A DNA stretch of 36,388 nucleotides from Rhodoferax sp. (GTDB lineage Bacteria; Pseudomonadota; Gammaproteobacteria; Burkholderiales; Burkholderiaceae_C). The translations under genes were made by a program, and so were the position numbers. Each line of letters opens with the position of its first letter. Position 1 is the stretch's first letter. The DNA is taken from positions 1-36,388 of the forward strand of contig JAIPDC010000010.1 in the NCBI GenBank assembly GCA_021737865.1. The letters are read 5' to 3'. The notes beneath the pieces are model-generated. The model ran no database searches. It worked only from the letters and a program-made list of their open reading frames with translations, and had not been told where the DNA came from. This document shows positions 14,768 to 32,134 of this stretch, one piece after another.

Positions 14768-15100
14768 ACGATCCACTGAGACTGACCCTTGGATTTCCCG
14801 GTCTGGGCAATGCGGGAGGGCAGATCATGTCGAGTCCGTGGTGAGCGGGTCCCTTGGCGCCATCGCGGCGATGGGCCCTCCATTTTTGCCGTTCACCTTG
14901 ACCCCTCGTTTTCTCTGGGCCTCTGCGTAAAAGACCTGGGTCGGATTGCTGCGTTGAGTGAAAACGTCAAAGCTTCCTGGCCCATGACTTCGGCGCCGCA
15001 GGTCGCCTTAGGCATGGCATTGGCGCGTTGCGGCCCAGACGCCGCAGGATTGCCTGTGGCAAAGCGGATTGAAGACGACAGCAATCCGTCTATGTGGCGA
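14764..15100 (+). pseudogene. Collapsed second copy of a HIBADH-family oxidoreductase
   Basis: Frame 1: MNDPLRLTLGFPGLGNAGGQIMSSPW* (Rossmann N-terminus, stop 14842-14844). Frame 0: VVSGSLGAIAAMG (cf. SPVTGSVDSAIRGD). Frame 2: GPSIFAVHLDPSFSLGLCVKDLGRIAAL...VAKRIEDDSN (cf. VPSIFAGHYDPSFRLELCLKDLALIDEL...VCKVIEDDAG in the neighbour). Confidence 0.8.
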
Positions 15101-16700
15101 GACGCTTGGCCAGCACCCCATCCAGCCAGTCCACCCGCATTTCGGGCACCGCTGTGATCAGTTTCTGGGTGTAGGGGTGTTCCGGGTTGTCGAAAATCTT
15201 GTCGGTTTGATCAAAGGCCACGAACTGGCCCTGGAGCATGACCGCCGTGCGATGGGCGATGCGGTGCACCACATCAAGATCGTGCGTGATCAAAACATAG
15301 GACAGACCCAGCTCAGCCTGCAGCTTGCGCAGCAATTTCAGGATTTCTTCGGCCACCAAGGGGTCCAGCGCGGAGGTCGGCTCGTCGAGAATGATCAGGT
15401 CAGGCCGGGCCGCCAAGGCGCGCGCGATACAGACGCGCTGCTTTTGCCCACCCGACAGTTGACCCGGCCTGCGCTGCAAAAAGTCAACAGGCAGTTCAAC
15501 CAGGGTCATCAGTTCCTTGGCCCGCTCAAGCGTCCCTTGCCGACCCAGTCCAAAATAGAACTGCACTGGCCGTCCCACAATATCGAGGAGATTTTGGCGC
15601 GGGTTGATCGCCACATCGGGGATTTGGTAGACCAGCTGAATACGTCGCTTGAGTTCCTTGTCGCGCGCCTTGAGGCTGGGCGGCAAGGGTTTTCCCTGGA
15701 AAACAATCTCACCGCTTTTTGGCGGCAGAAGGCCCGTGATCACACGCGCCAAGGTGGACTTGCCCGAGCCGGACTCACCGACCACGGCCACGGTCTCACC
15801 CCCCTTGACGGTCAACGCAACACCCTTGACCACATGGAAATTCCCGTAGTAGGCGTGGCAATCCTTGATGGACAACACGATTTCCGGCTTCACCGTGCCT
15901 GGCGCCGCCCGTTCGCTGGCCGCCGCGCCGCGCACCGCCACCAGGCGGGCCGTGTATTCCTGTTTGGCGTTGTGCAGAATCTGGCTGGTCAACCCTTCCT
16001 CGACCTCCTTGCCATGGCGCAACACCTTGATGCGGTCGGCCACCTGCGCCACCACCGCCAGGTCGTGTGTGATGTACAGGGCGGCCGTGTTGTACTGACG
16101 AATCAGGGACTTCAGCAGGATCAGCACCTCGATCTGGGTCGTCACATCGAGCGCGGTGGTGGGCTCGTCCAGCACCAGCACGTCGGGTCGGCAGGACATC
16201 GCCATCGCCGCCATCGCCCGCTGCAGTTGGCCGCCGGATGCCTGGTGCGGATAACGGGCGCCGAAGTTCTGCGGGTCCGGCAGGTCCAGGGCGGTGAAGA
16301 GCTGGCGCGCCCAGGCCTCTGCCTCCGCGCGGGTCATGAGCTTGTGGATCAAAGGCGCCTCGCACACCTGGTCCATCAGCGTGTGCGCCGGGTTGAAAGC
16401 CGCCGTGGCCGACTGGGCAATGTAGGCAATGCGCTTGCCGCGCACGCTGCGCCGGCCTTCGGCGTCGAGGGCGCGGATGTTGGTGCCGCCAAGAATGATC
16501 TCGCCCCCGGCGATGTGCACGCCGGCGCGCGCGTAACACATGCCCGCGAGGCCGATGGTGGACTTGCCGGCGCCGCTTTCACCGATCAGGCCCAGGACCT
16601 CGCCCTTGTTCAGATTGAGGTCGACGTTGTCGACGATCACCTGGCCCGCGATGCTCTCCAGGCGCAGCCCCTTGATTTGCAAAATGATGTTGTCGCTCAT
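15090..16700 (-). CDS. Dual-ATPase ABC transporter ATP-binding protein (fused DppD/DppF-type)
   Basis: Two Walker A ([22 protein letters not shown]), two signatures ([18 protein letters not shown]) and two Walker B ([24 protein letters not shown]) in 536 aa. Confidence 0.95.
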
Positions 16701-16715: not shown

Positions 16716-17549
16716 TCAGAGTTCGGCTTGCGCGCCCGAGGGGCGCGCATCCATGGACAGCATCCAGTCAACCACCAGATTGATGGCGACGGTCAACAAG
16801 GCAATGGTGGCGGCCGGGTAAATCGGCGCCATCATGCCGAAATTGATCGCGGCGGCGTTCTCTTTCACCATGCCGCCGAGGTCGGCGAAGGGCGGCTGGA
16901 TGCCCAAGCCCAGGAAGGACAGACCGGCGATAAACAGGAAGTTGAAGCAAAAGCGCAGGCCGAACTCGGCCACCAGGGGAGCCCAGGCGTTGGGCAGGAT
17001 TTCCCGGGTGATGACCCACCACAGGCCTTCGCCGCGCAGCTTGGCCGCCTCCACGTACTCCATCACCGACAGGTTCATGCCCAAGGCGCGCGACAAGCGG
17101 AACACGCGGGTGGAATCCAGGACCGCAATCGTCAGAATCAGCACCGGGATGCTGGAGCCGAACACGCCGAGAACGATCAGGGCGAAGATCAGGCCGGGTA
17201 TGGACAACATCACATCGACCAATCGGCTGAAAAAGACGTCGACCCAGCCACCCAGCACAGCGCTGGTAAAGCCCACCACGATGCCGATGAAGAAGGACAG
17301 CAGGGTGATCGCCAGGGCCACGCCAATAGTCATGCGCGTGCCGTAGAGAATGCGGGTGAACATGTCGCGGCCGATCTGGTCGGTTCCCAGCCACATGGTC
17401 GAGCTGGCTTCGTCCCAGGTGCCGCCGATGGTGGCGGATTCGGGGTGAGGGGCGATCCAGGGGGTAAACAGCGCGACCAGCACAAACAGTGTGACCACCA
17501 CCAGGCCGAACCAGGCGGTGGGTGTGGGTTTTTGTCCGAAGAGTTTCAT
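16716..17549 (-). CDS. ABC transporter permease (DppC-like)
   Basis: 277 aa; WLGTDQIGRDMFTRILYGTRMTIGVALAIT; EAAKLRGEGLWWVITREILPNAWAPLVAEFGLR. Confidence 0.93.
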   Translation of the reverse strand: MKLFGQKPTPTAWFGLVVVTLFVLVALFTPWIAPHPESATIGGTWDEASSTMWLGTDQIGRDMFTRILYGTRMTIGVALAITLLSFFIGIVVGFTSAVLGGWVDVFFSRLVDVMLSIPGLIFALIVLGVFGSSIPVLILTIAVLDSTRVFRLSRALGMNLSVMEYVEAAKLRGEGLWWVITREILPNAWAPLVAEFGLRFCFNFLFIAGLSFLGLGIQPPFADLGGMVKENAAAINFGMMAPIYPAATIALLTVAINLVVDWMLSMDARPSGAQAEL

Positions 17550-17574: not shown

Positions 17575-18522
17575 CTAGCGCTTGTGCCGCAAACGGGGAT
17601 TGACCAGAATGACCAGAATGTCCGCCAGGGTGTTCAGGGCCACGAACACGACCGCGAACACCAGACCACAGGCCTGGACCACAGGCACATCGCGCTTGGA
17701 CACCGCATCCACCATGAGCTGGCCGAGCCCGGGGTAAACAAAGACCGCCTCGATCACCACCACACCGACCACCAGGTAAGCCAGGTTCAGGGCGATCACG
17801 GTGATGATGGGCGCGGCCGCATTGGGCAAGGCGTGGCGCGTGATGACACGTTGGCGCCTGGCCCCCTTCAGAAAAGCCATCTCGATGTAGGGGGTGGACA
17901 TCACCGACAGCACCGAACTGCGCGTCATGCGCAGCATGTGGGCGGCGACCAGCAGGGTCAGGGTGATGGCGGGAAGCGTTGTCTGGTGGACACGCTCGCC
18001 AAACGGCATGCCCGTGAACACGGTCGAGAGGGACGGGAACCAGTCCACATTCACCGCCATGGCGATGATCAGCAGGTAGGCAATGAAAAACTCGGGCAGG
18101 GAAATGGCGACCAGGGTCAGGATGTTGGACAGCTTGTCCATCAGCTTGCCCTCGTTGATCGCCGAGTAGATGCCCAGACCCACAGCGAGGGGAATGGCGA
18201 TCAGCGCCGCGTAGGCGGCGAGAAACAGGGTGTTGCCCAGGCGGGGCAGAACTTCGTCCACGATGACGCGCTTGTTGGTGAGCGCCACACCCAGGTCGCC
18301 TTGAAGGGCCGCCACCAGCCAATTCCAGTAGCGCAGGTGGGATGGGACATCCAGTCCGAGCTCTTTGCGGAAGATAACGAGGGCTTCCGGCGTGGCGCCC
18401 TGGCCCAGCACGGCCGAGGCCACGTCACCAGGCAGGATCTCCGTGCAAACGAAGATCAGCACCGACACCGCAAAAAGAGTCAGCACGCCCAGCAGCAAGC
18501 GGTTGAATATGAGTTTCGACAT
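17575..18522 (-). CDS. ABC transporter permease (DppB-like)
   Basis: 315 aa; ILPGDVASAVLGQGATPEAL; MRMTRSSVLSVMSTPYIEMAFLKGARRQRVITRHALPNAAAPII. Confidence 0.93.
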   Translation of the reverse strand: MSKLIFNRLLLGVLTLFAVSVLIFVCTEILPGDVASAVLGQGATPEALVIFRKELGLDVPSHLRYWNWLVAALQGDLGVALTNKRVIVDEVLPRLGNTLFLAAYAALIAIPLAVGLGIYSAINEGKLMDKLSNILTLVAISLPEFFIAYLLIIAMAVNVDWFPSLSTVFTGMPFGERVHQTTLPAITLTLLVAAHMLRMTRSSVLSVMSTPYIEMAFLKGARRQRVITRHALPNAAAPIITVIALNLAYLVVGVVVIEAVFVYPGLGQLMVDAVSKRDVPVVQACGLVFAVVFVALNTLADILVILVNPRLRHKR

Positions 18523-18692: not shown

Positions 18693-20267
18693 TCAGGCAA
18701 ACCAGCCCTTTTCAGCGATACGCTGGTCGCCCAGATCGTAGCGGGCAGAGATCGTCAGGCCTTTCAGCTTGGTTGAGTGCGCATCCAGGTAGTCCTGCAC
18801 GCAGAAATTGACCATGCCGGAATTCTGGCTGACCAACTCCTGGCAGCGCGCGTACATCTGGGCGCGCTTGGCTTGATCGAGTTCCACACGTGCCGCGATC
18901 AAGGTTTTGTTGAACTCGTCGTTGATGAAGTGGGTGTCGTTCCAGGGATTGCTCAGACCGTTGGAGAAGATACTGGTCAACTGGTTGTCGATGGTCGGGC
19001 GGTTGCCCCAATACACCGCGCAGAACGGCACTTTCAGCCAGACGTTGTCCCAATAGCCGTCACCCGAGACGCGCTTCAAGTCCAGCTTGATGCCGGCCTT
19101 GGCAAGCGACTCCTGGAAGACCTGGCCGGCGTCGGTGGCGCCGGTGAAGGCGCCTTCGGACACCTGAAGTTCCATGGGCGCCGTCACACCGGATTTCTTG
19201 TAGAAGAACTTGGCTTTTTCGGGGTCGTAGGAGTTCAGTTTCTGCTTCGGGTCGTAGTACTTCATCCGTGGGCCCACGCAGTTATCGTTGCCGATGGATG
19301 CGTAGCCCGAGAACACGTTGTTGACAATGGTCTTGCGATCGATGCCGTGCTTGAGCGCCATCATCAGGTCGGAGTTGGTGTACGGCGACTTGTCGGTGTG
19401 GGCAACGAAGCAGAAGCGGTTGCCAGCACCTGGCGTGCGCGAGACCTTGATGTTCTTGTTCTTTTCCAGCAGGGCCGCGGTTTTGGGGCTGGCGCGGTTG
19501 ATGGCGTCGACCTGCCCCGTCAGGAGGGCTTGGGTGCGGGCCGCAGCATCACCGATGTAGCGCAGCTCGACGCGGTCGAAGTTGCCGCGGTTGGGCTTCC
19601 AGTAGTTGCCGGGCTTGCGCTTGAAGGTGGCGCGAACACCCGGTTGGAATTCTTCCAGCGTGAAGGCGCCGGTGCCGTCGGGCTTGGCCCAGTCCTTGAA
19701 GCCATTGGGCACAACAATGATGTGGTAGTCGCTCAGGTTGTAGGGCAGGTCCAGGTTGCCGTTCTTCATGAGAATCTGGATGGTGTTGGCGTCGATTTTC
19801 TTGACGTCAGTGACGTCGCCCAACAGCGACTTGGCGGGCGACTTGGTTTCGCCACGGTGCATGTTGATCGAGTAGATGACGTCGTCCGCATCGAGCGTCT
19901 TGCCCGAGGTGAAGGTGATGCCCTTGCGGATATGGAATGTCCAGTCTGCAGCTCCGGGCTTGACGTCCCATTTCTCGAAGAGTTCACCCGTGGCGTCGCC
20001 GTTGTCGGCCACTTCCACGAGGTTGTTCCAGAGCATCAGGCTCATCGCGATCGGAATGGAGTCGGCATAGGTGAGCGGATCGAGGCTGTCGGATGGCGAA
20101 CCGCCTTCCATGCCCAAGCGCAAAGTGCCGCCCTTTTTGGGCGCGCCCTGGGCCATCGCGGGCATGGCACCAAAAGTTGCCGACAAACCCAGGGCTGCGG
20201 CGCCGGTTAACAAATGGCGTCGACCCAGAATGATCCCGGACTCCGTTTGGATTTCGTCAGTTGGCAT
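18693..20267 (-). CDS. ABC transporter substrate-binding protein, family 5
   Basis: 524 aa; GRRHLLTGAAALGLSATFGAMPAMAQ signal; WTFHIRKGITFTSGKTLDADDVIYSINMHRGET; start preceded by TAAGGAG. Confidence 0.94.
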   Translation of the reverse strand: MPTDEIQTESGIILGRRHLLTGAAALGLSATFGAMPAMAQGAPKKGGTLRLGMEGGSPSDSLDPLTYADSIPIAMSLMLWNNLVEVADNGDATGELFEKWDVKPGAADWTFHIRKGITFTSGKTLDADDVIYSINMHRGETKSPAKSLLGDVTDVKKIDANTIQILMKNGNLDLPYNLSDYHIIVVPNGFKDWAKPDGTGAFTLEEFQPGVRATFKRKPGNYWKPNRGNFDRVELRYIGDAAARTQALLTGQVDAINRASPKTAALLEKNKNIKVSRTPGAGNRFCFVAHTDKSPYTNSDLMMALKHGIDRKTIVNNVFSGYASIGNDNCVGPRMKYYDPKQKLNSYDPEKAKFFYKKSGVTAPMELQVSEGAFTGATDAGQVFQESLAKAGIKLDLKRVSGDGYWDNVWLKVPFCAVYWGNRPTIDNQLTSIFSNGLSNPWNDTHFINDEFNKTLIAARVELDQAKRAQMYARCQELVSQNSGMVNFCVQDYLDAHSTKLKGLTISARYDLGDQRIAEKGWFA

Positions 20268-20663: not shown

Positions 20664-21446
20664 TCAAGCGCCGCGCCAAAGCGGCGGACGCTTTTCACTG
20701 AAGGCGCGCGGCCCTTCTTTCGCGTCTTCGGAGGTGAGCATGGCCCGGTAAGTGGGCAAGGACGCTGATCGCAGCGTGCGGTAGGCCGTCTCGATATCCT
20801 GGTGGCTGGTGGCGCGCAAAACCTCCTTGACCGCAGCCACCGCCAAGGGCGCGTTCATCGCGATCTGCGCGGCCATCTCCATCGCGCATGACATGAGTTG
20901 ATCGGCCGGGACCAGCTGGTTGACCAGGCCCCAGCGCAGGGCCTCTTCGGCCCCCATGCGCCGACCCGTGAACAACATTTCGGTGGCCAGCGCGCGCGGC
21001 AAGCGGCGCGGCAAGCGCAAGACACCACCCGAGTCGGGAATCATGCCCAGCTTCACCTCGGGCAGCGCAAACTCGGCTTGCGGGCTGGCAACCATCAGGT
21101 CCGCGGCAAGCGCCAGTTCAAAACCACCCCCCATGGCCAGGCCATTGACCGCGGCAATCACCGGCTTGCTCAGGGCAAAAAATTCTGTCAGGCCCGCGAA
21201 GCCGCCAGGGCCGTGGTCGGCGTCCACCGCCTCACCTTCGACGGCACCCGTCAGGTCCCACCCAGCCGAAAAGAACCGTCCCACCCCGGTCACAATGCCG
21301 ACCCTCAGCGCAGCGTCGTCCTGAAGCCGCGCAAACGCGGCGTACAGGGCCCGGCTGGTGCTCACGTTGATGGCGTTGGCCTTGGGCCGGTCCAGTGTGA
21401 TGGTCAGGACACTGCCCGTGACGGACATTCGCACCGCGTCGTTCAT
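20664..21446 (-). CDS. Enoyl-CoA hydratase/isomerase family protein (candidate crotonobetainyl-CoA hydratase)
   Basis: [73 protein letters not shown]. Confidence 0.93.
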
Positions 21447-21449
21447 GTT

Positions 21450-23531
21450 TCAATCCTTCCGGGAAATCCGTATCATGGCATCCACCGCCAGCACACCGTC
21501 GCCCCGCGGTCGCACCAGCAGGGGGTTGACATCGAGTTCCTCCAGGCAATCGCCGTTGGCCTGCGCGTAGGCGGCAATGGCCATGACGGCATCCAGCAGC
21601 GCCTCCACATCACCTGGTGGCCGTGACCGGTAGCCGCTGACCAGCGGCCAGGTCTTGAGAGAGACAAGCGCCTCGCGCACGTCAGCCCGCGTGGTCGGCA
21701 GCAACAAGGTCACCGTGTCTTTCAGCAGCTCGACGAAAACGCCGCCGGCGCCAAGCGTCAGCGCCAGGCCGAACTGCGCGTCGCGATGCACACCGACAAT
21801 GAGCTCAGCCACCGCGTCGGTGACCATTTTCTCCACCAGGAAACGGTCTGACAAGTGCGCCATGCCCGCAACGGCCTGCGCCACGCCGGCGTCATCGCTC
21901 AGGTTGAGACACACGCCGCCTGCTTCAGTCTTGTGGGCCAGTGCGGGTGACACCGCTTTCACCACCACCGGGTAACCCAGCCTGCGCGCACAGGCGACGG
22001 CTTCAGCGGCAGACACCACCTGACTGGCGGGAACCGGCAAGCCGAACGCGGCCAGCGCCTGTTTGCTGAGCGCCTCATCCAGCATCTGAATTTCCGAAGG
22101 GGCCGCGCCAGACACCGCTTCCAGCGCGAGGGCCTGCCCGGCGCGGCGCTGCGCGGCGCCGATCAGGGCCGCACTCACCAGCGCGTCCATACACTCCGCG
22201 AGGCCCTGCATGGGCGCGATCCCGTGGGCCAGCAGGGTGCGTGAAAAAACGTCTGGCAATCCTTCAGGCATGGAGGCCAGAACACATGCGGGCGCACCCG
22301 TGCGCTCGTGGGCGGCGACCCAGGCGTCCACCGTGCCCTGCCAGGCCGCGCCATCACACCGGTCAGCCCGGGGAAAGTCCAGCACCAGCAGGTGCATGTC
22401 GAACCGGCTCTCCATCAGCGCTGCAAAACATGCCGTTTGCGCAGCCATATCTCCCCAGATGTAGGTGTGGTAATCCAGCGGGTTTGCCACATGCACCCTG
22501 TCACCCAGCAGGTCGCGCAATTGCTGGTCGACGGGCGCAGGCAGGTCGGCCATGTCAAGCCCGCGCGGCTGCGCCAGGTCCGCCACCAGGGAGGCCTCCC
22601 CGCCGGAGCAACTGGCCGAGGCAATGCGCCGCCCGGCCAGCGCACCGTGGACATGCAAAAGCTTGAGCGTCTCCACCAGGCCGGCGGGGTCAAGCACCCG
22701 CGCCACGCCGCAGCGGGCAAACAAGGCGTCATACAAAACATCGGGGCCCGCCAGCGAACTGGTGTGGCTCATGGTCGTGCGCGCACCCGCCTCTGAGCTG
22801 CCGGACTTCAGCGCCACCAGAGGCACGCCCAAAGCAAGCGCCTTCAGGGCCACGCGAGAAAAAGCGGCGACATCGCCGAGCCCCTCCATGTGTAGTCCGA
22901 TGGCGCTGACCCGGTCGTCCTGCAGCAGGGCATCGACAACTTCCTCCAGACTGGCACCCGCCTTGTTGCCCACGGTCACCAAGTAGGCCAGGGGCAATGC
23001 GCGCCTCTGCATGGTGAGGTTCAAGCCGATATTGCCACTTTGGGTGACGATGGCCACGCCGCGCGCAAGCCGCTCGCCACCATGCTGGTCAGGCCAGAGC
23101 GCCACCCCGTCCAGATAGTTCAACATGCCGTAGCAATTGGGCCCCAGCAAGGCCGTGGCGCCCGCGGCCTGCACCAGTTGCCGCTGCAGCGCGACACCTT
23201 CCCCCCCCGCTTCGGCAAACCCGGAGGCATAACAGATGACCCCGCCAGCACCACGGGCGGACAGCGCCGAAACCACTTCCACCGTGCCTTCTCGCGGCAC
23301 CGCGATAAAGCTGGCATCGGGCGCCTCGGGCAAGGCGTTCACCCCCGGATAACAGCGCAAGCCTTCCAGTGTTTCTTTGCCCGGGCGAACCGGCCAGATC
23401 TCCCCGGCAAACCCGAGCGCCCTGCACTGGCGCACCACTTCTGCGGCAGCCCTGCCGCCAAACACGGCAATGTGCCGGGGTGCAAACAGGCGGCGCAGAT
23501 TGGCGGCGGACGCCGCGCCCGGTCTGCTCAC
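21450..23531 (-). CDS. ADP/NDP-forming acyl-CoA synthetase (acetate-CoA ligase ADP-forming family)
   Basis: 693 aa: CoA-binding N-terminus (RHIAVFGG...GFAGEIWPVRPGKETLEG), succinyl-CoA-synthetase-like middle (IVTQSGNIG), ATP-grasp C-terminus (ALAAFGLPVPASQVVSAAEAVACARRLGYPVVVKAVSPALAHKTEAGGVCLNL). Confidence 0.92.
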   Translation of the reverse strand: MSRPGAASAANLRRLFAPRHIAVFGGRAAAEVVRQCRALGFAGEIWPVRPGKETLEGLRCYPGVNALPEAPDASFIAVPREGTVEVVSALSARGAGGVICYASGFAEAGGEGVALQRQLVQAAGATALLGPNCYGMLNYLDGVALWPDQHGGERLARGVAIVTQSGNIGLNLTMQRRALPLAYLVTVGNKAGASLEEVVDALLQDDRVSAIGLHMEGLGDVAAFSRVALKALALGVPLVALKSGSSEAGARTTMSHTSSLAGPDVLYDALFARCGVARVLDPAGLVETLKLLHVHGALAGRRIASASCSGGEASLVADLAQPRGLDMADLPAPVDQQLRDLLGDRVHVANPLDYHTYIWGDMAAQTACFAALMESRFDMHLLVLDFPRADRCDGAAWQGTVDAWVAAHERTGAPACVLASMPEGLPDVFSRTLLAHGIAPMQGLAECMDALVSAALIGAAQRRAGQALALEAVSGAAPSEIQMLDEALSKQALAAFGLPVPASQVVSAAEAVACARRLGYPVVVKAVSPALAHKTEAGGVCLNLSDDAGVAQAVAGMAHLSDRFLVEKMVTDAVAELIVGVHRDAQFGLALTLGAGGVFVELLKDTVTLLLPTTRADVREALVSLKTWPLVSGYRSRPPGDVEALLDAVMAIAAYAQANGDCLEELDVNPLLVRPRGDGVLAVDAMIRISRKD

Positions 23532-24692
23532 CTAGGCACCCTGGGCACGCAACATGGCGCGCGAAATAATGTGCCGCTGGATTTCACTCGTGCCGTCCCA
23601 GATGCGCTCCACCCGGGCATCACGCCAAAAGCGCTCAATTGGCAAACTCTCCATCAGGCCCATGCCGCCAAAGATTTGCAGCGTCTGGTCGGTGATCCGC
23701 GCCAGGGTTTCAGAGGCAAACAATTTGGCCATGGCGGCATCGGAGTCGGTCATTCGGCCCTGGTCACATTTCCACGCCGCTTGCAGTGTGAGCAGTTCAG
23801 CGGCTTCGAGTTCGGTGGCCATGTCGGCGAGCTTGAAGCCCGTGCCCTGAAAGCGCCCGATCGGCTGGCCAAACTGCTGCCGGGTGGCCGCCCACTGCGT
23901 GGCCATATCAAGCACGCGGCGACCCCGCCCAACGCTGGTGGCGGCCACGGTCAGGCGCGTCGCGCCCAACCATTCACCCATCAAGTCAAAGCCCCGCCCC
24001 TCCTCGCCCAAACGCTTGCGCACGGACACGCGGCAGTCGTCAAAAAAAAGCTCACTCTGGTGGTAGCCGCGGTGCGACACACAGGGTGGTCCCCGCCGCA
24101 CCGTGAGGCCCGGACTGTTCATGTCCACGAGAAAACCGGTGATCTTCTTCTTGGGCCCGCTTCGGGTCTCCTCCACGCCTGTCGCCGCAAACAGGATCAC
24201 AAAGTCGGACATGTCGGCATGGCTGATGAAGTGCTTGGTGCCGTTGATCACATAGTCATCCCCCTGGCGCGCGGCGCGCGTCTGCATGCCGCGCACGTCG
24301 GAGCCGGCGTTGGGTTCCGTCATGGCCAGACAGTCGTGGCGCTCACCCCGGATGGTGGGCAGCAGGTACTCTTCGATCTGATCACCCGTGCAGCCACGCA
24401 AAATATTGCTGGGGCGCGCCACCAGCATTTGCAGGCCATACGAGGCCCTGCCAAGCTCACGCTCCAGCAAGGTGATGCCCAGATTGTCCAAGCCCCCGCC
24501 GCCCAGGGCTTCTGGCATGTTGGCGGCGTAAAGACCCACCTCGATGGCCTTGGCCTGGATCTGCGCCGCAAGGTCTGGCGGAATCGCGTCGGTGCGCTCA
24601 ACAAGGTCTTCATGAGGGTACAGCTCGGTCTCAACAAAAGAGCGGACCGTGTCGACAATCATGGTTTGTTCGTGGCTGAGTTCAAAATGCAT
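23532..24692 (-). CDS. Acyl-CoA dehydrogenase
   Basis: CLAMTEPNAGSDVRGMQTRA, KHFISHADMSDFVILFAATG, QIFGGMGLMESLPIERFWRDARVERIWDGTSEIQRHIISRAML. Start trimmed from the ORF-track 24947 to MHFELSHEQTMIVDTVRSF. Confidence 0.93.
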   Translation of the reverse strand: MHFELSHEQTMIVDTVRSFVETELYPHEDLVERTDAIPPDLAAQIQAKAIEVGLYAANMPEALGGGGLDNLGITLLERELGRASYGLQMLVARPSNILRGCTGDQIEEYLLPTIRGERHDCLAMTEPNAGSDVRGMQTRAARQGDDYVINGTKHFISHADMSDFVILFAATGVEETRSGPKKKITGFLVDMNSPGLTVRRGPPCVSHRGYHQSELFFDDCRVSVRKRLGEEGRGFDLMGEWLGATRLTVAATSVGRGRRVLDMATQWAATRQQFGQPIGRFQGTGFKLADMATELEAAELLTLQAAWKCDQGRMTDSDAAMAKLFASETLARITDQTLQIFGGMGLMESLPIERFWRDARVERIWDGTSEIQRHIISRAMLRAQGA

Positions 24693-24717: not shown

Positions 24718-25293
24718 TCAGGGCTTGCGACGGATGCCGATGGAGGCACCCGCCTGGGGGGGTCTGCCAAGCGGCGCATGGGCCGCGTGGATGGCGGCGA
24801 GGCGTTGCTGCAGGTCCGCCGGCATGGGTGCCGACCGGCCCTGCGCCATCTGCACGTGCACCAGCATTTGCTCACAGGTCGCCAACAACTCGCCCGTTGT
24901 GGCGTGGTGCATGGCATGGAAGATGTGCATCCGCTTGGCGTCGACATCGAGCAGTTGCAGGCTCAGGCGCAAAGGCTGGCCGAGCGAGATTTCCCTGATG
25001 TTGTGAATGTGTGTCTCCACCGTGTAGAAGGAATGGCCGCCCTGGTCCCGGTACGACTCGTCGATGCCGATGAAACGAAAGAATGCATCCGAGCTGTCGC
25101 CAAAAACCAGCAGGTAACAGGATTCGCTCATGTGCCCGTTGTAGTCGACCCACTCGGGTCGCACGGTGGTCTGGTGCAGGCACAGCGGCGCGGTAATGGG
25201 GGCATTCGCGTCCCACGCCGTCGCGGGGGTGCCTTCCAGTGGCGTGCTGAGCCGGCTGCTCGCGGCCGGCCCGGGGGTGTTGGGCTTATCCAT
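24718..25293 (-). CDS. Hotdog-fold thioesterase family protein, copy 1
   Basis: TTVRPEWVDYNGHMSESCYLLVFGDSSDAFFRFIGIDESY...HSFYTVETHIHNI; start trimmed to [11 protein letters not shown] at 25293. Confidence 0.87.
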   Translation of the reverse strand: MDKPNTPGPAASSRLSTPLEGTPATAWDANAPITAPLCLHQTTVRPEWVDYNGHMSESCYLLVFGDSSDAFFRFIGIDESYRDQGGHSFYTVETHIHNIREISLGQPLRLSLQLLDVDAKRMHIFHAMHHATTGELLATCEQMLVHVQMAQGRSAPMPADLQQRLAAIHAAHAPLGRPPQAGASIGIRRKP

Positions 25294-25795
25294 GGGGGGT
25301 GACAAGTTTGGGTGGCGCCAGCGCAATGGAGCGGCCGGCATAACTTGGCCGGGGCAGCGCGAGGTGCGGCTGCGCCAAGGCGCGCAGTCGCTCCCCCGCC
25401 TGCGCTGCAAAGGGAGCGGACCGCGCCCGCGCGGAGTCAATATTGATCAGCATCTGCTCATTGGCGGCCAGCAGCGCAGCGCCGCCCTGAAGGTACAAGC
25501 CGTGGCAGAGATGCAGCCGTTTGGCATCCAACCCCACGATGTGGGTGAACACCTCCACGTCCGCACCCTCCTTGACTTCCAGCAAGTAGCTCAGGTGGGT
25601 TTCGAGCGTGTACAGGGTGTGCCCGGTCGTTTGGCGGCCCTGCGCGTCCATGCCGATCAAGTCCATCAGGCCGTCACTTGCAAAACTGAAAATCACCATG
25701 TAGTAGGCGTCGCGCAGATGGCCGTTGTAGTCCACCCAGTCATGCGCCACCTTGCCGCGCCATGTGCACAGCGGCTCTTTCACCGGGCTACTCAT
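25286..25795 (-). CDS. Hotdog-fold thioesterase family protein, copy 2 (candidate betainyl-CoA thioesterase, CdhB-like)
   Basis: [36 protein letters not shown]...[40 protein letters not shown]; 8-nt overlaps with both neighbouring genes. Confidence 0.85.
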
Positions 25796-26753
25796 CGAGC
25801 GAAATTCCGTGCTTGATCTTGGTGGCGCGCACCGCTTCCTGCACCGCCATCAGGCAGTCGTCGCGATAACGCTCCAGTTCAGCAATGCTGTGTTTTCCCA
25901 GTTGCACCTTGGTGCCATCGACAACCTCGTCGATCAAGGCATCGGTCAACTCCGGCGCGATCAGTTTGGTCCAGGGCAATTTGAGCGCCGGACCGAATTG
26001 CGACATGAAGTGGCGCATGCCGGCATCACCGCCGGCCAGCGTGTAAATCAGAAAACTGCCCATGAACGACCAGCGAATGCCGGCGCCGTAACGAATGGCG
26101 TCGTCGATCTCGCCGGTGGTCGCGACGCCCTCGTTGATCAGGTGCAGTGACTCCCGCCACTGGGCCTCCAGCAGCCGGTCGGCGATGAAGCCAGGAACCT
26201 CCTTGCGAACATGCAGCGGCTTCATGCCCATGCCCTTGTAAATGCCGATCGCCGCGGCAATGGCCTCTGGCGAGGTGTGTTTCCCACCCACCACCTCGAC
26301 CAGCGGGAGCAAATACACCGGGTTGAACGGGTGGCCCACCAGACAACGCCCGGGGTTCCTCGCCCGGGCATAAAACTCCGAGGGCAGCAGGCCGGAGGTG
26401 CTTGAGCCAATGAGCACCTCGGGCCGGGCTGCCGCACTGACCTCCGCGTGCAAATCAATTTTCAGCTGGAGCGTCTCGGGCGCGCTCTCCTGAACGAAAT
26501 CGGCATCGGCCACACAGGCTTCAATGGTGGACACAAAGCGCAGGCGCGCGGGTGATGCGCCGGCCTTGAGGCCGTTCTTTTCAAGCGCGGGCCAGCATTT
26601 TTCGATGCGTTGGCGCAGATTGACCTCGGCATTGGGGGCCGGGTCCCACGCGGTCACATCCATGCCGTTGGCCAGGGCACGCGCAATCCAGCCGCTGCCG
26701 ATCACGCCGGTGCCCAGCGCGGCGAAAGTTTTGATGTCAGTCACAAAGGCCAT
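25788..26753 (-). CDS. cdhA: L-carnitine 3-dehydrogenase (CdhA-like), 3-hydroxyacyl-CoA dehydrogenase fold
   Basis: [43 protein letters not shown]...[43 protein letters not shown]...[48 protein letters not shown]: pattern recognised as carnitine dehydrogenase. Confidence 0.88.
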
Positions 26754-26787: not shown

Positions 26788-27690
26788 TCAAGCGCGGGTC
26801 TTCAGGTTCATTTTGACTCGTCCCTGCGCCGGTGTCATCGGTCTGGCACCCATGCAGCCGATCAACTCGATGACACGCTCGACAAGTTGCCCATTGCTCG
26901 CGGGCACGCCCTTGGCGAGCCAGATGTTGTCCTCCAGGCCCACCCGCACGTTGCCCCCCAACAAAATCGCCTGCGCCGCCATGGGCATTTGCATGCGGCC
27001 GATGCCGAACGCGGCCCAGGTCACGCCCTGCGGCAGGTTGTCCACCATCGCCTTCATGGTGGTGGTGTCGGCCGGTGCGCCCCAGGGAATGCCCAAGCAC
27101 AACTGAAACAGCGGGTCGTGCAGCAGGCCCTCCCTGATCATCTGGTTGGCAAACCACAGGTGACCGGTGTCAAAAATCTCCAGTTCGGCCTTCACCCCCA
27201 GTTCGGTGATGCGCCGGGCGCCCGCCCGCAAGGCGGCGGGGGTCGAGACATAAATCGTGTCGCCATCGCCAAAGTTCAGGGTGCCGCAGTCCAGGGTGCA
27301 AATATCGGGCAACAATTCCTCGACATGCACCAGACGGGTCAAGGGGCCCACCAGGTCGGTGCCGGGCCCAAAGGCCATCGGCGACTCGCCGGCGCCAATT
27401 TCAAGGTCGCCGCCCATGCCGGCGGTCAGGTTGACGATCATGTCAACGCCTGAATCACGGATGCGCTCCATCAACTCCCGGTACAGGGCCGGGTCGCGGC
27501 TGCCCTTGCCCGTCTGGGGGTCCCGCACATGGCAATGCACCACGGTTGCTCCGGCCCTGGCCGCCTCCACCGCGGCCGCGGCGATTTGTTTTGGCGTCAC
27601 CGGGATGGCGGGATGCCTGCCAACCGTGTCTCCGGCGCCGGTCAGCGCGCAGGTGATGATGATGTCGTGGTTCATGTTCTTTTCCTTCAA
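26788..27690 (-). CDS. cdhC: BKACE (beta-keto acid cleavage) family, candidate 3-dehydrocarnitine:acetyl-CoA cleavage enzyme (CdhC-like)
   Basis: [70 protein letters not shown]...VNLTAGMGG...[22 protein letters not shown] start 27690; ATG at MNHDII (27675) is also possible. Confidence 0.85.
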
Positions 27691-27727: not shown

Positions 27728-28468
27728 TCAGGTTTTATAGTCAGGTTCTTCCTGCTCGAGGATGTCCTTGAGCGCCTGAAAATGCAGGCTGGCGAACTGC
27801 GTCGGATAGGCGCGCCACTGCGCCGCGGCGGTCGACGCCATGGCGTCGGGAATCAGCGCCAGGGTCTGCCCGGTAGACAGTGCACGCACCTGCAGGGCGG
27901 CCGCCTTTTCGAGGTAATACAGTTCATCGAAAGCCTCCGCCACCGAGCCAGCGATCACCATCACGCCGTGGTTTTTCATGAAGAGAACGTTTTTGTCGTC
28001 GCCCAGCAGCGCAATCACCCGGTGCGCCTCCGACGCATCGAGTGCCATTCCGCTGTAGTGGTGGTCATAGGCAATGCGCTTGTGGAAACGACAGGCGTTC
28101 TGGTCGAGCATCAAAAACTCAAAGTCCTGCAGGCAGCACAGGGCCGTGACGTTGATCATGTGGGTGTGCAAAACACAACGGGCCTGCGGATGACGCTGGT
28201 GCAGCGCCGCATGCAGATGCCATGCCGTCGGATCCGGTGCCTGCGCTCCCTGCGAAGGCGCTTCAAGGGCGTCGAGCAACAGCAAGTCGCTGGCGCGCAT
28301 CCGGGAAAAGTGCCGCCCCACGGGATTCAGCAGAAACTTCGATCCATCCCGCGAAACGGCCACACTAAAATGGTTGGCAATGGATTCGTGCATGTCCAAG
28401 CGCGCCGCCCATCGGAAGGCGGCGGCCAGGTCGATCCGGGCTTCACGAATCATTGATGCGTCAGGCAT
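27728..28468 (-). CDS. Class II aldolase/adducin family protein
   Basis: [56 protein letters not shown]...[19 protein letters not shown]...[30 protein letters not shown]. Start set at MPDASM. Confidence 0.9.
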
Positions 28469-28584
28469 TTGCAAATCTCCATTCAAAACCGAATGTACCT
28501 GCACCATCACCGGTCAAATTTACATCGAGCGACATTTATTTGATGAAAAACGACTGGCCGTGGGGCTCGTTTACCCTATCCAGG

Positions 28585-29980: not shown

Positions 29981-32011
29981 CTACGCCTGCGCTGAATAGT
30001 TCGGCCGCCCGATCGCCTCGGCCACGATCACCGCCTCCAGCAAACCGGTGTCGCTCACCGCGTTGGGCAGCCATTGCTTCTTCACGCTGATCTTCACCTC
30101 AGGCTCCTGCGCGCCCATGGCGATGACGGCATCGTGCGCCGCCTGTCGGGCCATGTGCGTGGCGGCTTCCAGTGCGGCTGCGGGGTCGGTGAATTGCTGC
30201 AAGCCGGCGGTGGAGCGCAGGCGGAACATGCCGCAGCCATCCCCATCCACACGCACCGTCACCGCTTTCGCGACCACGCCGGTGGCTGCGCCCACGGCAT
30301 TGGCCACATCCCAGTAGTCGGGAAAGACCACGGTGCAACCCAGGCGCAGGCCCACCTCGGCGTAATACACCTTCACCGGGCCGCCCACCGCCACCACGGG
30401 CACCGAGGGCGCCATGCTGATGCGGGCCAGGCCCAGCTTGCCCGCGCCTGAACACACGGCATTGATCAGGGTGTCGTCCGCCGGGCTCATGCCAAATGCG
30501 GTATCGAGAATCGCACGCCCGGTGAGTCGCACCGTCTCGCTCCAGACCTCTTTGGCGAAAGCCTCAGTGCGCTCGGGGGTCGGGAATTTCATTTCGCGCA
30601 GACGGCAGGCCAATTGCGCCGCCAAGGTGGCCGCCGGTGCCGACCAGTTCGCCTGCAGGCCCAGCACATGGGCGGCATCGGAGGGGGTGAAGGCGCTGAC
30701 CTGCACGAGACCCTTGCGCTTGAGTGAGGCAATGGCACGATGGGCTGTGCTGGAGTTGGCAATTTTCCTGAACGGCTGCGGGTGCCCGGTGACGAGGCGC
30801 AGCACCTCGGCCTCGCGCGGTGCCAATTCGCCCGTGGGCGCGTCCTGGCGCGCGCCAAAGGGCAGCAGCACAAAGCGCCCATGCATGGAGCCTCCGCCGG
30901 CAACATCAGCCAGGTCGGCCTCCAGCATCTTCAGGACCTCGGGGTAACGGGCGCCCAGCAAGGCCACGGGAACCACGCGGTGCGGGCCGATGTTGATCTT
31001 GTTGTTGGCGCCCAGTTGCACCTCGCTGTCGCCGCCCAGGCCGATGGTGCGCACGTCAATGGCACGCACCATCGTGCGCCAGCCGCCGACTTCGGCGCCT
31101 TCCTGTGTGACGCGGGGCCGCCCGTCCAGCACCACGCCCAGGTCGGTGGTGGTGCCCCCCATGTCGGACAGGATAAAACTGTCCAGGCCCGACAACCATT
31201 GCGCGCCGACCAGGCTGGCGGCGGGGCCGGACAGCACGGTTTCAATGGGGCGCATGGCCACGCTCTCGGCCAGGGCAAGGGTTCCATCACCTTTCACAAT
31301 CATCAGCGGGCAGCTGATGTGCAGGTCACGCATGGCCCGGCTTACCGCCTCGATCAGGTTGGACACGCGTGAAATCAGGCGGGCATTGAGTGCCGCCGTG
31401 ATCGCCCTGCGCGGCGCGTCCAGCGAAGAGGACAACTCGGTCGACAAGGTCACAGGCTTGCCGGTGCGGGCCACGATGTGATCGCGCGCCGCCAGTTCAT
31501 GCGCCGCGTTGCGCACCGCAAATCTGGACGCCACGGCAAACGCGTCCACCTGCCCCGTCATACGCTGCAGGGCGGCATCGAGCGCGTCCAGGTCCAGCGG
31601 CACCGGGGCGTCGCCGTTGTGGTCATGCCCGCCGGCAATCACCGCGACGGGCATGCCGGGAAAGGCCTTGGCAATGCCGGTGCGTTCGACCATGGCCGCA
31701 TCGAACCCGACCAGCAACACACCGACCGCGCTGCCATGCCCCTCGACCACGGCATTGGTGGCCAGCGTGGTGGAAACCGAGACCATGGAGATGTCCTGCG
31801 GGTGCAGGCCCTGCGGCAGCTGGGCGACGGCCCGGGTAATGGCCTCGGTCACACCGATCGCCAGGTCGCCCTTGGTGGTGATGGCTTTGGCGGAAGCGAT
31901 GACGCGGTGCCCTTGGGCTTCGATGATGGCGGCATCGGTGTAGGTGCCGCCGGTGTCCACACCGATCAGGTAAGAGGCCGCCGCGGCAACCAATGGGTCT
32001 TTAGTGGTCAT
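29981..32011 (-). CDS. Hydantoinase/oxoprolinase family protein (HyuA-like)
   Basis: YLIGVDTGGTYTDAAIIEAQGHRVIASAKAITTKGDLAIGV; LSDMGGTTTDLGVVLDGRP; VVAVGGPVKVYYAEVGLRLG. Start trimmed to MTTKDPL at 32011. Confidence 0.9.
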   Translation of the reverse strand: MTTKDPLVAAAASYLIGVDTGGTYTDAAIIEAQGHRVIASAKAITTKGDLAIGVTEAITRAVAQLPQGLHPQDISMVSVSTTLATNAVVEGHGSAVGVLLVGFDAAMVERTGIAKAFPGMPVAVIAGGHDHNGDAPVPLDLDALDAALQRMTGQVDAFAVASRFAVRNAAHELAARDHIVARTGKPVTLSTELSSSLDAPRRAITAALNARLISRVSNLIEAVSRAMRDLHISCPLMIVKGDGTLALAESVAMRPIETVLSGPAASLVGAQWLSGLDSFILSDMGGTTTDLGVVLDGRPRVTQEGAEVGGWRTMVRAIDVRTIGLGGDSEVQLGANNKINIGPHRVVPVALLGARYPEVLKMLEADLADVAGGGSMHGRFVLLPFGARQDAPTGELAPREAEVLRLVTGHPQPFRKIANSSTAHRAIASLKRKGLVQVSAFTPSDAAHVLGLQANWSAPAATLAAQLACRLREMKFPTPERTEAFAKEVWSETVRLTGRAILDTAFGMSPADDTLINAVCSGAGKLGLARISMAPSVPVVAVGGPVKVYYAEVGLRLGCTVVFPDYWDVANAVGAATGVVAKAVTVRVDGDGCGMFRLRSTAGLQQFTDPAAALEAATHMARQAAHDAVIAMGAQEPEVKISVKKQWLPNAVSDTGLLEAVIVAEAIGRPNYSAQA

Positions 32012-32134
32012 GAAAAATGGAACAGGCGAGGGGTGAATGGCGCAATTAGACAGGTCCGGATGTCTCACCCAGACAAGCACGCTTGCGGCCCATGTGTTAG
32101 CTTAGCTGCCGGCACAAACAACCGGGCATTTTCA

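Follow-up and report, generated by a model that had tools for sequence, protein, structure and literature searches.

Two long-diverged hotdog thioesterases in a Rhodoferax carnitine operon, one of them a candidate carnitinyl-CoA hydrolase

The window analyzed here is a 36,388-nucleotide stretch of DNA from Rhodoferax sp. (GenBank assembly GCA_021737865.1, contig JAIPDC010000010.1, positions 1 to 36,388 of the forward strand, read 5' to 3'). It carries an operon, wholly on the minus strand, in which two thioesterase genes, termed B1 and B2, stand between cdhA and a gene for an acyl-CoA dehydrogenase (ACAD):

27728..28510, minus strand: class II aldolase/adducin-like protein, first gene of the operon (PF00596, 135.6 bits)
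26788..27690, minus strand: CdhC, a BKACE protein predicted to cleave 3-dehydrocarnitine to betainyl-CoA (PF05853, 319 bits)
25788..26753, minus strand: CdhA, L-carnitine dehydrogenase, unfused (NCBIfam NF005471)
25286..25795, minus strand: B1, CdhB-type hotdog thioesterase, proposed betainyl-CoA thioesterase (PF13279; clade of 2HLJ; overlaps cdhA)
24718..25293, minus strand: B2, module-type hotdog thioesterase, proposed L-carnitinyl-CoA thioesterase (PF13279; module clade; overlaps B1)
23532..24692, minus strand: ACAD, proposed gamma-butyrobetainyl-CoA dehydrogenase (Acyl-CoA_dh domains)
21450..23531, minus strand: ADP-forming acyl-CoA synthetase, proposed gamma-butyrobetaine:CoA ligase (PF13549, PF13607, PF13380)
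20664..21446, minus strand: CaiD-like crotonobetainyl-CoA hydratase (top NCBIfam match NF002936)
18693..20267, minus strand: ABC transporter substrate-binding protein (SBP_bac_5, PF00496)
17575..18522, minus strand: ABC transporter permease (PF00528, PF19300)
16716..17549, minus strand: ABC transporter permease (PF00528, PF12911)
15090..16700, minus strand: ABC transporter double ATPase (two ABC_tran stretches)

CdhA passes model NF005471 with 607.1 bits against a cut-off of 414, and cdhC adjoins cdhA in nearly all of the cdhA loci inspected. The class II aldolase-like gene keeps the same position in most of the related Comamonadaceae loci. In an island of Arctic SAR11, too, a carnitine dehydrogenase and a BKACE are accompanied by a thioesterase and a class II aldolase (PMC12421898). 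The hydratase misses the cut-off of NF002936 (367.3 bits versus 500), though this is its best match, and carries both crotonase-type glutamate motifs, GGGFEL and LPEVKLG. The ACAD falls below the CaiA model NF002885 (199.4 bits versus a cut-off of 540), and its top NCBIfam match, also under the cut-off, is an acryloyl-CoA reductase; it has an aspartate in the usual catalytic-glutamate motif (WDGT), a form seen in 97 of 126 related matches, with WEGT in 27. Of the operon proteins covered by a Pfam scan, none is a CaiB-type transferase. A hydantoinase A-like protein is encoded further upstream (29981-32080), separated from the operon by an opposite-strand transporter gene.

B1 (169 aa) begins with an ATG at 25795 and B2 (191 aa) with one at 25293. 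The overlaps of cdhA with B1 (ATGAGTAG, 25788-25795) and of B1 with B2 (ATGGATAA, 25286-25293) each measure 8 nt, and to this extent the original prediction, of two related hotdog thioesterases linked by such overlaps and sharing the motifs VDYNGH, TxETHxxxxxE and a third of 18 letters, was confirmed: the motifs are present in B1 and B2, which are 37% identical over 158 aa (E 2e-41) and both match PF13279 (4HBT_2; B2 120.5 and B1 77.8 bits, cut-off 25.5). Both also match the thioesterase half of PRK07531, the model for a CdhA:thioesterase fusion, B2 better than B1 (174.6 versus 120.7 bits), although the B2 score, confined to the C-terminal part, falls short of the 592 bits of the full-length model. 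The nearest PDB entry is 2HLJ of P. putida (B1 154 bits, B2 117 bits), which is again the top PDB match of the B2 structure model, and structure prediction gives confident hotdog folds for B2 (pLDDT 94.7) and B1 (91.8). Given relatives in many other species and these high-confidence folds, B1 and B2 are taken to be real proteins; chance reading frames on the wrong strand are ruled out by the Pfam matches, conservation and structure models. Six positions, W48, D50, N52, H54, G76, and E141 in B2 numbering, are invariant across 116 aligned enzymes, and the 4HBT_2 domain of B1 likewise has the invariant DxNxH and glutamate positions. The objection foreseen with the original prediction, that one enzyme might lack catalytic residues, therefore does not arise, and the idea that one of the pair is catalytically dead is ruled out by the presence of the invariant positions in both.

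The pair had also been described as tandem paralogues, and this part of the prediction did not survive phylogenetic analysis. A tree of 78 rows puts B1 in one clade with P. putida 2HLJ and Burkholderia CdhB (support 100/97). B2 lies outside this CdhB clade, among 25 thioesterases (support 96/90) from Comamonadaceae, Burkholderia, sphingomonads, Streptomyces, and Saccharopolyspora, every one of the module class (MOD), a label that requires only two changes among the 78 rows and that, like all class labels in the tree, was set by hand from gene context before tree building and not blind. AU tests reject both a sister relationship of B1 and B2 (p-AU 4.65e-07) and a single clade of all Comamonadaceae B1 and B2 proteins (p-AU 1.41e-05). 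In 10 of 12 related Comamonadaceae-type loci the two genes are separated by ∼1.1 kb, which, where read, holds a zinc-type alcohol dehydrogenase-like gene (e.g., L047:8811-9905) that is absent from this place in the window; the direct adjacency originally noted holds for the window and for L052 and L057 among the 12 but is not general. The AU tests and this spacing together rule out a recent tandem duplication, and the overlap in the window is thus a local arrangement of two old paralogues. Judged from the tree, B1 and B2 are ancient paralogues brought into one operon, and not the products of local duplication.

Gene context was compared across 80 named loci found by alignment search with B1 and B2 and annotated with the proteins of the window, a sample whose locus frequencies are biased because loci were picked by similarity to B2. 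The partners of the B2 clade are the ACAD, whose gene adjoins B2 orthologues in most loci, the ADP-forming CoA ligase and, in most cases, a CaiD-like hydratase (together, the module). The linkage of B2 to ACAD and ligase does not depend on cdhA, and B1 adjoins cdhA in the window, together with cdhC. Streptomyces, Saccharopolyspora, and Burkholderia have orthologues of B2 (57-64% identical) that stand with ACAD and ligase while cdhA and cdhC lie outside the gene cluster. In nine loci from the first two genera, the fetched stretch shows B2 with ACAD, ligase and hydratase but neither cdhA nor cdhC, and S. scabichelini and S. cavernae have a separate, divergent cdhC-cdhA-thioesterase set near the B2 module. 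The Burkholderia linkage is looser, since ∼3 kb, including a gene on the opposite strand, separates B2 from the ligase, and the hydratase is only ∼30% similar to that of the window. Whole-genome searches of the genomes with split halves recovered cdhA from 10 of the 11 actinobacteria and from all 5 Burkholderia, and in all 15 the cdhA locus has its own, non-B2 thioesterase. In six sphingomonad loci, a free-standing B2 beside ACAD, ligase and hydratase accompanies a CdhA:thioesterase fusion.

A different route to two thioesterases is seen in five Acidimicrobiia-type loci (L091, L095, L103, L108, and L124), where an intact CdhA:thioesterase gene is followed by a second thioesterase gene. Its product is B2-like (52-55% identical) and joined to a stretch of ∼190 aa that is just 27-32% identical to CdhA and is read as a degenerate CdhA remnant; in the three tested, Pfam detected neither a complete dehydrogenase nor a 3HCDH C-terminal domain in this remnant. 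The gene stands beside ACAD in four of the five loci, the contig of L095 ending at that point:

L091:9431-10495, L103:9431-10495, L108:5301-6365, L124:8982-10088: thioesterase fused to a degenerate CdhA remnant, beside ACAD and ligase

In the tree these second thioesterases group with the fused Acidimicrobiia enzymes and not with the B2 clade of the window, suggesting two separate origins of a dedicated module thioesterase. This independent origin is the strongest argument for the usefulness of a second hydrolase.

In rhizobia, among them an S. meliloti record and R. johnstonii 3841, an otherwise equivalent operon, also followed by an annotated ABC transporter, has one thioesterase, fused to CdhA. 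The S. meliloti CdhA protein SM2011_c01638, here matched to the fused protein of locus L224 by family and synteny and not by locus tag, reportedly turns betainyl-CoA into glycine betaine (work cited in a passage of PMC12482172). The fused thioesterase of L224 is the sole one with its module and branches on the B2 side of the tree, so betainyl-CoA may be a substrate for enzymes of the B2 type as well. A ligase-anchored survey of 399 genomes of the phylum yielded 36 other ligase loci, of which 12 encode a fused thioesterase and the remaining 24 lack one locally; all 20 genomes searched from the latter group have a thioesterase homologue elsewhere, several in fusion-sized frames. Three genomes of one genus (G606, G468, and G710; loci L212, L213, and L215) have carnitine loci of the cdhA-ACAD type, with cdhC seen in two and ligase sequence in two, but at E 1e-6 they lack homologues of this thioesterase family. 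On the evidence of the rhizobia, the ligase survey and these three genomes, having two thioesterases is one of several solutions, and one generalist can evidently be enough.

CdhA works on free carnitine, so carnitinyl-CoA must shed its CoA between the two halves of the pathway. B2 is most likely the natural candidate for this hydrolysis, leaving betainyl-CoA to B1. We propose, with a probability of roughly two in three, that B1 hydrolyzes betainyl-CoA and B2 frees carnitine from carnitinyl-CoA, in an operon that would take gamma-butyrobetaine through L-carnitine to glycine betaine. The ligase, ACAD, and CaiD-like hydratase would convert gamma-butyrobetaine to L-carnitinyl-CoA, from which B2 would release free L-carnitine, the substrate of CdhA. 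By the known functions of their families, CdhA would then convert carnitine to 3-dehydrocarnitine and CdhC, with acetyl-CoA, would yield betainyl-CoA and acetoacetate, before B1, as the CdhB orthologue, would produce glycine betaine. B2 should need to recognize the 3-hydroxyl group, since ligase and B2 would otherwise run a futile cycle on gamma-butyrobetainyl-CoA. The same order of CoA activation by thioesterification, dehydrogenation, and hydration, leading to L-carnitine and then L-carnitine dehydrogenase, is given for the Lonza strain HK4 in a passage of PMC3546705 that names no thioesterase, a likeness at the level of chemistry. The predicted second CoA ester, possibly carnitinyl-CoA, is thus partly supported: genomic context and phylogeny favor it well, in that the second thioesterase tracks the second CoA-dependent half of the pathway, but a second enzyme is not required, as the rhizobia and the loci with none nearby indicate. 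It is an even bet whether B2 founds a dedicated, as yet unnamed, group of L-carnitinyl-CoA thioesterases, with the betainyl/carnitinyl split having evolved at least twice, once through the degraded dehydrogenase half of a duplicated fusion gene.

Known systems share parts of this arrangement. B1 resembles the CdhB-type thioesterase of the Pseudomonas cdhABC genes (2HLJ, P. putida KT2440) in clade, Pfam family and place directly after cdhA, whereas B2, from a different clade and with a conserved stretch at its N terminus, goes with the ACAD-ligase module. The thioesterase domain of the rhizobial fusion (PRK07531; SM2011_c01638) shares the B2 side of the tree, and its operon is alike in its flanking ACAD, ligase, caiD-like and ABC transporter genes, but it has one fused thioesterase where the window has two free ones. 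The E. coli caiTABCDE operon has comparable chemistry at the CoA level and a CaiD-like hydratase; it runs reductively, however, and recycles CoA through the CaiB transferase, in contrast to the ADP-forming ligase and thioesterases of the window.

B1 and B2 could instead be overlapping generalists, each acting on betainyl-CoA and carnitinyl-CoA, with B2 having arrived alongside the module and having no distinct job. The single fused enzyme that serves the rhizobial operon, the activity on betainyl-CoA reported for the S. meliloti fusion on the B2 side of the tree (passage of PMC12482172), and the one or no nearby thioesterase of most surveyed module loci would all be consistent with this, yet it is unlikely in view of the one thioesterase retained per half in split-half genomes, the separate B1 and B2 clades with their clade-specific residues, and the independent second module thioesterase of Acidimicrobiia. 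Lower still stands the idea that B2 is a salvage thioesterase for gamma-butyrobetainyl- or crotonobetainyl-CoA, or that the module runs from carnitine to gamma-butyrobetaine with B2 releasing the latter. Related steps do run reductively in E. coli (PMC2131755) and the ACAD has its top, below-cut-off match in acryloyl-CoA reductase, but the direction described for HK4 in the passage of PMC3546705 is oxidative. The module also shares one operon with the oxidative CdhA/CdhC route, is present in Streptomyces, and is accompanied by no CaiB-type transferase among the operon proteins scanned, all of which makes such a role improbable.

ADP-forming synthetases are reversible, and the ligase might itself free carnitine from carnitinyl-CoA by running backward and conserving ATP, with neither thioesterase essential for that step. 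In the three genomes noted above, which have cdhA and ACAD, a search at E 1e-6 found no homologue, though it covered only this thioesterase family. The HK4 mutant HK13, whose L-carnitine degradation was blocked by frameshift mutagenesis, still yields carnitine (passages of PMC2131755 and PMC3546705); these passages give no mutated site, and a thioesterase might also have been lost if the frameshift hit a fused gene. The B2-type gene is nevertheless retained with the module in several phyla, and hydrolysis by B2 is preferred over ligase reversal, which we consider highly improbable.

Within the open-access literature, which leaves most subscription journals outside, no named enzyme was found for the hydrolysis step of aerobic gamma-butyrobetaine use, and the term "betainyl-CoA thioesterase" had no match. 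The gamma-butyrobetaine pathway underlies an industrial L-carnitine process, and B2 would be a candidate gene for this step. Needing to distinguish C2, C4, 3-hydroxy, and 3-deoxy betaine esters, the pair would also make a clear-cut test case for the way in which hotdog thioesterases acquire specificity. The residues directly after DYNGH differ by clade, LRD in that of B1 and MSE in that of B2, and D45 of B1 aligns with R73 of B2; these positions may be the places to look for determinants of specificity.
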